A stretch of 48,774 nt of DNA from a virus. The notes under the pieces are model-generated. The model saw only the letters and a program-made list of their open reading frames with translations. It was not told the DNA's origin and searched no databases. Shown here piece after piece: positions 23,583 to 31,346 of this stretch (its first letter is position 1; the number at the start of each line of letters is the position of its first letter). Both the position numbers and the translations under genes were made by a program. The DNA is taken from the IMG/VR virus record IMGVR_UViG_3300032087_003179, positions 1 to 48,774 of that record. One strand, 5' to 3'.

Positions 23583-23972
23583 ATGGAAATGACAATATTA
23601 CAATCTCTTCTTGACAAACTACCAAAAGAGTACGTTGATTGTGTTGTAAATAACTTACAAGACATAAGTATTCTTCAAGATAACTCTTTATCACTAGAGG
23701 TTGACTTGATGAATCTATTCGACTGGAATGATTCAAGAGAGGGATATGAGTTTTGGGATCAGGTATTCCAATACTTACTCGGGAAAAATGACTTACCCGA
23801 ACTTCCAATAGAAATTAAATACGAACCATCCATGATTATTGTTGCAGATAGAAATCTATACATGATGAATACAGGAGCAACAGGATTAAACATTAGCTAT
23901 GAGCTAGGATGGAAAGAGTTTCACAAAGCACCAACAGAAGTAAAAGAAAAAATATTAGGTTGGTTAAATTAA
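23583..23972 (+). CDS. Acidic unknown protein, 129 aa
   Basis: The central DWNDSREGYEFWDQVFQYLL is typical of small phage proteins. Soluble, mixed fold. It is the last gene of the accessory run: the stop lies directly before a promoter and a non-coding RNA locus. Function unknown. Confidence 0.6.
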   Translation: MEMTILQSLLDKLPKEYVDCVVNNLQDISILQDNSLSLEVDLMNLFDWNDSREGYEFWDQVFQYLLGKNDLPELPIEIKYEPSMIIVADRNLYMMNTGATGLNISYELGWKEFHKAPTEVKEKILGWLN

Positions 23973-23977
23973 TTTTG

Positions 23978-23985
23978 TATATTTG
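23978..23985 (+). promoter_or_regulatory. Promoter -7 box of the non-coding RNA
   Basis: TATATTTG is a perfect match to TAnnTTTG. The nearest TTG (23960-23962) is 15 bases upstream, shorter than the usual spacing. Transcription would begin near 23992. Confidence 0.6.
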
Positions 23986-23991
23986 TAATAA

Positions 23992-24083
23992 TTACGGAAG
24001 GAAAAGATATTTATTGGTTAAGATTATCTTCTAGATAGTAGCCCTGGTCATCCTTCCGTACATTAGATCAGGGCTTTTTTATT
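23992..24083 (+). ncRNA. Short structured RNA with interleaved stems and terminator
   Basis: The predicted transcript begins at the 5' arm of a perfect 10-bp stem (23993-24002 with 24051-24060), encloses a small hairpin (TATCT/AGATA, 24025-24037), then the 5' arm of a second 10-bp stem with one G-U pair (24040-24049 with 24066-24075), which is followed by six T. The first stem's 3' arm lies in the loop of the second, so the two interleave as a pseudoknot or as alternative states. No open reading frame longer than a few codons fits. It could be a free small RNA or a switch for the downstream gene. The stems are seen; function is inference. Confidence 0.6.
24040..24083 (+). terminator. Terminator of the small RNA
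   Basis: AGCCCTGGTC pairs with GATCAGGGCT over ten positions (one G-U) around a 16-base loop and is followed by six T. The loop holds the partner of an upstream segment, so it might be disabled when that pairing forms. Confidence 0.7.
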
Positions 24084-24084
24084 T

Positions 24085-24360
24085 TATAGATGTTGTATGC
24101 GGTTGAACATCTTAACAAAAACAACCACTCATAGTGAATGCTTATTATAAATTAAAAATCCTGCTCTGTTTAAACGCTTAACAACAGGTACTGCATACCG
24201 AAAGGTTCAATAATAAGTAAACCAAAATGCCTAAGTCTATTGACTGAATACATAAGAAAAGGTCGCAGAGGGAAGTTTCACTAGCTGGGTATATCTATAA
24301 TAACTATAGATTAAATGCTGTAAATTATCTATGCAGTATAAAAGCGTAGCTATAAATAAT
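24085..24360 (+). ncRNA. Gene-free structured stretch before the secreted protein
   Basis: About 280 bases without a gene. Three pairs of segments can pair in crossing order: GTATGC with GCATAC, TTGAAC with GTTCAA, and CTTATTAT with ATAATAAG. A CCGAAAGG tetraloop-like element occurs near 24199, a perfect 7-bp hairpin ATCTATA/TATAGAT at 24293-24311, and a 6-bp hairpin at 24329-24349 with one G-U. No promoter box is visible. It may be a structured RNA or leader of the gene at 24369. I cannot assign it to a known RNA class. Confidence 0.4.
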
Positions 24361-24368
24361 AATTAATT

Positions 24369-24788
24369 ATGAGAAAATTTATTTTAACAATCGGTTTAAG
24401 TATACTATCGTTAAAGGCTAATAGCCAGATAGTTGTAAGAGAAGAAGCAAAAGATAGCGTGGTTTGGTATAGTAAATTAGCTGGCCTTCCAAAGCTTGTT
24501 CACTTTTACGGTGAAGAGTATTCTAGTTACACATTGTATTACAAAAACTCTAAGTATCAACACATAACAGATATAAAATACCTATCACTAGGTGACAAAG
24601 AATCTGCACAACAGTTTTTTAATATAGTTAAGAAGACAATACAGAATGGCAACAAGATATCACTAGAGATTAATGGAGAGTTATTCATTGTATCAAAATC
24701 ATTTAACACGGCTTTTGTTTATGGAAGTAGTTCGTCTTTTATGATTAGTAAGAAGCAAATTGAAAATGTATTAAAAGCACTAAACTAA
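24369..24788 (+). CDS. Secreted (periplasmic) protein of unknown function, 139 aa
   Basis: The N-terminus MRKFILTIGLSILSLKANSQ is a classic signal peptide of the Bacteroidota type, with cleavage likely near Ser19-Gln20. The mature part is about 120 residues, mostly beta then helix (FNIVKKTIQNGNKISLEING), without cysteine and without a lipobox. Phage-encoded secreted proteins of this size often block superinfection or alter the envelope, but this is inference. The stop overlaps the next start (TAATG). Confidence 0.65.
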   Translation: MRKFILTIGLSILSLKANSQIVVREEAKDSVVWYSKLAGLPKLVHFYGEEYSSYTLYYKNSKYQHITDIKYLSLGDKESAQQFFNIVKKTIQNGNKISLEINGELFIVSKSFNTAFVYGSSSSFMISKKQIENVLKALN

Positions 24789-27409: not shown

Positions 27410-27727
27410 ATGAGTTGGGAGAATTGGATAATGAGGAATGATGGTGATGGCCCAATAACAAACTATGACTTTATATTAGATCTGGCTGTGCAAAATTACA
27501 AGTTGTCAGAGAAAAGCAGGAAGCAAGAATTAATAGACATGAGACATTGCCTTATAAAATGGTGGAAGAAAAACAAGATGAAGTTTAGAAAATATAACTC
27601 TTTTACGGCAGTTGGTAAGTCCATGAATCTTACCCACTGTACTGTGATTCATTACGTAAAACACAGGAAGAAGAGCCATGACTATAAGGAAAATACAAGT
27701 TGTATTTATGATTTTTTAACAAGCTAA
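27410..27727 (+). CDS. DnaA domain IV-like DNA-binding protein, 105 aa
   Basis: Residues 62-85 read SFTAVGKSMNLTHCTVIHYV, closely resembling the DnaA signature helix in which a conserved iGk-x-x-x-D-H-T-T-V-x-H segment contacts DnaA boxes; here the Asp-His-Thr-Thr core is Thr-His-Cys-Thr. No ATPase domain precedes it. The gene lies before a helicase-loader candidate and the helicase, as expected for a protein that marks an origin. Binding to DnaA-box-like DNA is an inference. Confidence 0.65.
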   Translation: MSWENWIMRNDGDGPITNYDFILDLAVQNYKLSEKSRKQELIDMRHCLIKWWKKNKMKFRKYNSFTAVGKSMNLTHCTVIHYVKHRKKSHDYKENTSCIYDFLTS

Positions 27728-30364: not shown

Positions 30365-30985
30365 ATGGAGAGACAAATACTACAAGTTGTTAGTTTTCAG
30401 GAGGCATTCGGAATTAAGACACCAACAGAGCCTGGTATGCTAAGCAAGAAAAGAACTATTCTAAGACAAAAGCTTCTAGAAGAGGAAGTAAAAGAACTTA
30501 GGGAAGCCAAGAATATATTAGAGGTATCAGATGCGCTATGTGACATAACGTACATAGTTCTAGGAACTGTTCAAGAGTATGGACTGTCTGATCGTTTTGT
30601 AATGTTGTTTGATGAAGTTCATTCTTCTAACATGTCGAAGCTCGGACCTGATGGTAAAGCAATATTCAGAAAGGATGGTAAAGTAATGAAACCTGAAACA
30701 TATAGGCAGCCTAAACTTATGCCAATACTTGAGAGAGACTTTAGCCTTTATAAAAACAATGAAATAATGAAGGAGATAGCAGAGAACGAGAAGTATAAAA
30801 CTATATCCAAGATAGAAGGCAAAATAAAGCATAAATTAAACTGGTTTGACAAGATAGTTTACTGGCTCAGTAATAAGCTCGATAAGAGACTTAAATCTAA
30901 AATAGAGGTAAAGTATCCACAAACTATTTATGGGCCTATTACGGTCAAAGTATATGGCAAAGAATACCACATACAGAACACGTAG
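30365..30985 (+). CDS. MazG-like NTP pyrophosphohydrolase, 206 aa
   Basis: An all-alpha NTP pyrophosphatase: the metal-binding EEEVKEL at 39-45 and the second helix SDALCDITYIVLG at 55-67 carry the expected Glu and Asp residues. VHSSNMSKLGPDGKAIFRKD (about 92-111) is the recurring C-terminal motif of phage versions. It would hydrolyse excess or modified nucleotides during infection. The last 70 residues are an extra basic domain (KIKHKLNWFDKIVYWL) with unknown role. Its 3' end overlaps the next gene by 32 bases. Confidence 0.8.
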   Translation: MERQILQVVSFQEAFGIKTPTEPGMLSKKRTILRQKLLEEEVKELREAKNILEVSDALCDITYIVLGTVQEYGLSDRFVMLFDEVHSSNMSKLGPDGKAIFRKDGKVMKPETYRQPKLMPILERDFSLYKNNEIMKEIAENEKYKTISKIEGKIKHKLNWFDKIVYWLSNKLDKRLKSKIEVKYPQTIYGPITVKVYGKEYHIQNT

Positions 30986-31346
30986 TAAATACGGAAATAA
31001 GAAAATAGAAATTGATGGCAAGAAATTCGATTCAAAACTAGAATTATATTGCTACAATATGTTAAAACAATTGAAGATACCATTTGAATTTCAACAGAAA
31101 GAAGTATTGATGGAGTCATTTAGATACAACGGAAAAGCAGTCAGACAAATTACATTGACAGTAGATTTTGTAGCAGAATACAAAGGAATTAAATACTACA
31201 TAGACACAAAAGGATTTGCAACAGACGTATCAAAAATGAAATACAAAATGCTTAAACAATCATTGAAAGACGATATGTATACAGATGTTGTTTGGTTGAA
31301 GAACCAAAAAGAAGTACAAAGTTTTATTAACAAATTAATTAATTAA
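30954..31346 (+). CDS. DUF1064-type PD-(D/E)XK nuclease, 130 aa
   Basis: The ATG giving MAKNTTYRTRSKYGNKK is used; a longer frame from 30930 is less likely. KFDSKLELYCYNML carries the first Glu of the fold, TVDFVAEYKG the acidic residue and YIDTKGFATDVSKMK the catalytic Asp-x-Lys. The family (DUF1064) comprises small phage nucleases of the Holliday-resolvase type. It would cut branched DNA or help resolve replication intermediates. Located directly before SSB. Confidence 0.8.
   Translation: MAKNTTYRTRSKYGNKKIEIDGKKFDSKLELYCYNMLKQLKIPFEFQQKEVLMESFRYNGKAVRQITLTVDFVAEYKGIKYYIDTKGFATDVSKMKYKMLKQSLKDDMYTDVVWLKNQKEVQSFINKLIN

Follow-up and report, generated by a model that had tools for sequence, protein, structure and literature searches.

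A family of phage leader RNAs with a terminator loop complementary to an upstream segment of the same transcript

The analyzed window, a stretch of viral DNA of 48,774 nucleotides (IMG/VR record IMGVR_UViG_3300032087_003179), contains between two genes a predicted promoter and a terminator hairpin whose loop is complementary to the beginning of the predicted RNA. Is this complementarity meaningful and, if so, what does the RNA do? The initial annotation described a short promoter-driven RNA with its own terminator and two crossing stems, and interpreted it as a two-state switch or attenuator that may regulate the secreted protein downstream or act in trans. The parts of the element were identified correctly, to the base. 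The perfect TAnnTTTG box TATATTTG occupies positions 23978..23985 on the plus strand, as do all features below, and adjoins a second box, TAATTTTG (23970-23977), which starts on the stop codon of the upstream gene (23970-23972). The 5' kissing, or pseudoknot, strand X (TACGGAAGGA, 23993..24002) is a perfect complement of the 10-nt strand Y (TCCTTCCGTA, 24051..24060) in the terminator loop; X is present in the window once per orientation. The linker between X and the terminator (24003..24039) folds with a small local hairpin. The terminator stem is formed by the arms AGCCCTGGTC (24040..24049) and GATCAGGGCT (24066..24075), which make ten pairs, nine Watson-Crick and one G-U; a link of 5 nt (24061-24065) separates Y from the 3' arm, and a T-rich tail (24075..24085) follows the stem. 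Further downstream is a gene (24369..24788) for a 139-aa protein with a signal-like N-terminus, for which no family match was found. As previously noted, the element has no coding explanation, the longest open stretch within 23973-24368 being only 41 codons. The single-sequence fold of the element is mildly better than that of shuffled sequences (z -1.7) and is not decisive. Elsewhere in the window, a small protein encoded at 27410-27727, adjoining the DnaB-like helicase, contains the stretch LTHCTVIHYVKHR that resembles the DnaA DNA-binding signature.

Relatives were sought by scanning DnaB-helicase relatives from IMG/VR for a terminator loop complementary to an upstream stretch, and a dozen phages demonstrated the same layout with wholly different X and Y sequences. 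Two pattern scans of viral contigs enlarged this collection, and the resulting family comprises 34 type I loci with 25 distinct terminator loops (a set that includes L025, later recognized as type II) and 11 type II loci. Cultured members are phi19:1, FCL-2, P12002L, 11b, and morran9-1. They came from the structural detector applied to fetched genomes; blastn provided nothing useful for cultured relatives because the element diverges too fast. The detector found no unit in Flavobacterium phage 6H, and Riemerella phage PT33 has a weak unit without a perfect box. Pattern matches in L048, L052, and L063 were discarded as chance, as were most class B pattern matches. By eye, L040 also shows this layout; its terminator stem has two mismatches, and the script overlooked it. 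The region 30851-31050 of phi19:1 (L002 4001-4200) has AATATTAGGTTGGT...TAATTTTGTA in common with window positions 23938-23979; there it precedes an unannotated region of ~150 nt with its own terminator and four tRNAs. This match was rejected as a unit and represents promoter-proximal AT-rich sequence before tRNAs.

The common layout consists of a TAnnTTTG box, X, a linker of ~40 nt, and an intrinsic terminator with the loop Y complementary to X, which supports the prediction of a short RNA with its own terminator. The box lies 7-10 nt before X in each of the 34 type I units and 8-14 nt before it in the type II units, so that in both types a Bacteroidota TAnnTTTG-type promoter box lies near the predicted start. 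The hairpin and U-tract of an intrinsic terminator are present in the window and in each of the 34 listed units of type I; a T-run follows the stem in every unit, and the stem itself is kept in relatives. The linker sequence is not kept across lineages, and the gap is 32-47 nt in relatives and 22 nt in L025. X typically sits in a 5' hairpin as its loop; L012 (ATCGAA-TCCACAC-TTCGAT) and L044 (ACTAA-GTCGCA-TTAGT) are examples. In most relatives this hairpin is conserved, X is 6-9 nt long, and the kissing contact with Y comprises 6-9 pairs; the terminator loop is 8-14 nt long in most relatives and 19-25 nt in type II.

The complementarity of X and Y is real and far beyond chance. In the 25 distinct type I units, the longest complement of X averages 7.9 nt in its own terminator loop and 3.8 nt when loops are crossed between units; the summed own pairing is 197, compared with a permutation maximum of 130 (0 of 20,000 permutations). 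Own pairing in the 11 type II units likewise exceeds all 20,000 permutations. The initial annotation set compensatory changes in homologous phages as a test of the element, and these were found for the crossing helix: in the 12-unit alignment all seven X:Y pairs are changed on both sides (0 of 500 shuffles), and the flanking stems hardly vary. Sliding the X:Y partners by one column in this alignment reduces the fraction of paired cells from 96% to 40%. The detector, which requires a box, X at a fixed distance, and a terminator, had no matches in two sets of shuffled DNA, of 1.37 Mb and 2.18 Mb (~3.6 Mb together), and its matches in 2.4 Mb of real DNA were all family members. Because the loop letters vary by lineage yet change together, this is a real RNA element. 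It was also previously unlisted: neither the leader nor the class A RNA described below matches any of 4227 Rfam models at the gathering score, and literature searches on flavophage leader RNAs and kissing terminators turned up nothing similar. Low-threshold local Rfam scans yielded weak chance matches, such as freshwater-1 with 16 bits against a cut-off of 72, which were rejected.

In type I units, including the window, a second conserved pseudoknotted RNA, overlooked in the initial annotation, lies directly 3' of the terminator. The window copy of this class A RNA (24089..24354, ~265 nt) was aligned with 23 other loci, yielding 52 modelled pairs. Among them are two crossing helices, 24101-24105 with 24122-24126 and 24189-24197 with 24330-24338; the invariant core GGTCGCAGAGGGAAGT is at 24261-24276. 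In the 24-sequence alignment 93.7% of pair cells are kept and 26 pairs are changed on both sides; the covariation score is reached in 0 of 500 shuffles, and sliding leaves 28-42% paired. The single-sequence fold of 24080-24368 is unremarkable (z -0.5), although the alignment shows structure. At 10-11 loci the class A position is occupied by an alternative cassette, the class B RNA, with its own covarying stems. L012 (class A) and L037 (class B) have near-identical leaders and the same downstream gene with different cassettes. In class B, for example L010 2463-2717 and L037 814-1092, a direct repeat follows GGAAG and AAAAG, and its bases change together between phages. A divergent class A RNA in L061 and a divergent class B RNA near a tRNA-like stretch in L084 have no recognizable kissing unit upstream. 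The class A core motifs gave no exact match among the GTDB species genomes, a result that speaks against class A prophages being common.

The gene behind the cassette encodes the secreted protein in the window, a DNA methyltransferase in L013 and L021, and, as read from translation, a terminase-small-subunit-like protein in the L054 group; in L040 and L051 the sequence reads as a convergent gene. With such varied genes, neither RNA looks like a single-gene regulator. One of the roles initially suggested, regulation of the secreted protein in cis, is unlikely and was dropped, since other phages have other genes in this place. None of the type I units has a TAnnTTTG box between the terminator and the downstream RNA, and the latter would therefore have to be reached from the box promoter by read-through.

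Type II units, in which Y lies in the middle of the large terminator loop, are situated directly upstream of replication-initiator or primosomal genes. They were observed in the IMG/VR contigs L098/L121, L126, L130, L134, L025, and L095 and in cultured phages: Cellulophaga phi19:1 (NC_021799, about 10353), Flavobacterium FCL-2 (NC_027125, about 37475; also in the relative FCOV-F13), Polaribacter P12002L (KR136259, near 34477, minus strand), Flavobacterium 11b (AJ842011, about 33621), and morran9-1 (NC_048836). Phage phi10:1 has the phi19:1 unit with an altered box, TATATTTA, and Nekkels_1 has a related unit by eye. Eight of the ten tested proteins behind type II units match replication-initiation, primosomal, or DnaD-like families, the match of the 11b protein being weak (E 0.0014); for the L025 protein and the small phi19:1 gp030, also among these ten, no replication-family match was found. 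In FCL-2 and P12002L the start codon lies within ~20 nt of the T-run end, and expression from the box promoter therefore needs read-through. In L121, L130, and L137 (phi19:1) a conserved CGGTnATCTTnAAACCG-like hairpin, possibly a translation element, separates the type II terminator from the start codon. L025 contains a third copy of X (CATCTCAC, 713-720) directly 5' of the start codon of the first post-terminator gene, and its terminator loop could, judging by complementarity, also pair with this copy.

The position between a promoter and an operon, combined with an intrinsic terminator, makes a transcription attenuator the simplest reading, and the leader probably controls transcription of the genes behind it. 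Our best explanation, which we hold with some but not full confidence, is a promoter-proximal transcription attenuator yielding an RNA of ~90 nt, in which kissing tunes or fixes termination. RNA polymerase would start a few bases 3' of the TAnnTTTG box, and the nascent RNA would expose X first, typically within the 5' hairpin loop. The terminator hairpin would form ~40 nt later, and its loop Y would pair with X. Most transcripts would presumably stop here, producing the ~90 nt RNA with its ends tied via X:Y, and read-through transcripts would continue into the second structured RNA, as in type I and the window, or into the replication-initiator operon, as in type II. The X:Y contact may act on the terminator during transcription, tuning or locking termination, and may also stabilize the terminated RNA. 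The folding energies alone give no verdict on whether kissing helps or hinders termination. Two observations complicate the attenuator reading: the upstream genes are co-directional with the element, which leaves room for other promoters feeding the operon, and the varying downstream gene of type I means that no cis role for any one gene is conserved.

Among known systems, the leader appears to work most like a pT181-type attenuator, minus the antisense RNA. The pT181 attenuator operates by a kissing-hairpin interaction, and orthogonal matched loop pairs have been made in the laboratory (PMC3753616). In these attenuators (RNAI and the repC leader), as in type II units, a leader terminator with loop-loop complementarity precedes a replication gene; matched loop changes in pT181 give orthogonal regulators, and here matched X/Y alleles occur naturally. 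However, pT181 uses a separate RNA from the opposite strand, whereas here both partners belong to one leader RNA, and reverse TAnnTTTG boxes were found in only 2 of 36 units. The P4 CI and P1/P7 c4 RNAs are short, stable phage RNAs derived from leaders that cause premature termination of an early operon by pairing, with the specificity residing in short paired segments. They repress lytic functions of temperate elements via separate target sites, whereas the leader carries the complement within its own terminator loop; the corresponding Rfam model (C4) had no match over the gathering score in the window, FCL-2, P12002L, or 11b. In the preQ1-I, fluoride, and ZTP riboswitches a 5' segment likewise pairs with a hairpin loop near or overlapping the terminator, but these have conserved ligand-binding nucleotides, whereas the crossing helix of the leader is hypervariable and the rest of the element shows little conservation across lineages. 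The phi29 pRNA, ROOL, and GOLLD are also phage RNAs with matched lineage-specific loop pairs, and multimerization is conceivable here too; however, they differ in size, fold, and location, they have no Rfam match in our element, and here the terminator is a kissing partner. The element also differs from ToxI of type III toxin-antitoxin systems, as only one unit without tandem pseudoknot repeats was found.

Another reading concerns action in trans. Through its complementary loops, the terminated RNA may pair with leaders that are being transcribed from other phage copies or from a superinfecting phage and share its allele, and so restrain replication or gene dosage; the diversification of loops would then set incompatibility or immunity groups, as in plasmid attenuators or the P4 CI RNA. 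We consider this doubtful as the principal function. Dosage feedback by the released RNA is conceivable because the same loops exist on every leader copy, and several observations on the alleles agree with it. In the pairs L021 and L043, L013 and L043, and L012 and L066, X differs at four of seven positions, with Y matching, while the remaining unit differs by ~10% and the downstream RNA by 4-5%; these pairs were picked for differing X, and in the L049-L062 group the X allele is unchanged, so the contrast is suggestive and falls short of a formal test. A few alleles appear on more than one backbone: L012, L043, and L015 share TCCACAC, and L013, L021, and L066 share CTCGTAC. Elsewhere in the same phage sequence, X/Y alleles do not occur beyond chance expectation, with the exception of L025, and the likely partner is therefore the RNA itself or another copy. 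In plasmids, elements of pairing specificity show rapid paired change in stable surroundings. The fast-evolving loops of the leader suggest allele-specific RNA-RNA recognition, although neutral turnover of a helix with a purely structural role could also produce the rapid paired change. The lack of a conserved antisense promoter also argues against action in trans. Lysogenic immunity of the classical kind is an unlikely variant of such action, given that FCL-2 has been described as virulent (PMC8092290), that no PF00589 integrase was found in the window, and that GTDB species genomes contain no exact class A motif.

A stable X:Y helix might be only structural, shielding the RNA from nucleases. 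In its full form this reading states that the kissing loop merely closes a small RNA and protects its ends, and that the RNA acts elsewhere, as a protein decoy or in anti-defence, with termination unregulated. Both helices can coexist in most members, hairpins are present at both ends, and X:Y is kept as pairing and not as sequence, all of which is consistent with such a role. We nevertheless find it unlikely, as the element is placed between promoter box and operon across many unrelated settings, in particular before replication initiators, and beyond the hairpins there is little sequence conserved across lineages for a common protein to bind.

The initial annotation argued that the two stems probably cannot both form in full, and on this ground suggested a two-state switch or attenuator. 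In the corresponding reading, the 10-bp X:Y helix in the window blocks the terminator, causing antitermination. The window is an extreme variant of the family, resembling an H-type pseudoknot, with its 10-bp X:Y, the 5-nt link, and a weak 5' hairpin (+4 kcal/mol); X:Y is similarly long (9-11 bp) in L006, L027, and L051. The energies of X:Y and the terminator in the window are close (-15.2 and -14.6 kcal/mol, respectively), and the non-pseudoknotted minimum-energy fold uses X:Y and not the terminator. However, most relatives have the normal kissing-loop geometry: X, in the loop of the 5' hairpin, makes 6-9 bp with Y in a larger terminator loop. Mutual exclusion is therefore not kept across the family, and a kissing complex topologically leaves the stem unblocked. 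The argument thus fails for the family, an obligatory two-state switch is not supported, and even for the window we regard exclusive states as improbable. Finally, a plain terminator belonging to the upstream gene, with complementarity arising by chance, would fit the location directly 3' of the stop codon and the normal terminator shape, but is refuted by the covariation and by the permutation and shuffle controls, as well as by the promoter box immediately upstream in all members, and has practically no chance of being correct.

In summary, these data add a widespread family of RNA leaders to Bacteroidota phages, where described RNA regulation is scarce; class A and class B bring two more structured RNAs that had not been listed. 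Clean covariation and the availability of cultured phage-host pairs (FCL-2 with F. columnare and phi19:1 with C. baltica) make the family directly testable, and the paired loop swaps provide a ready natural set of alleles that may be orthogonal. If kissing sets termination, the leader would be a natural attenuator with built-in and evolvable specificity. A more speculative view, to which we assign a rather low probability, is that virulent flavobacterial phages use these self-complementary, rapidly diversifying leaders to sense their own gene dosage and to discriminate between self and non-self phages. Were this true, loop-loop kissing at the terminator of a replication operon, with no antisense gene, would constitute an RNA-based system of incompatibility or superinfection control.
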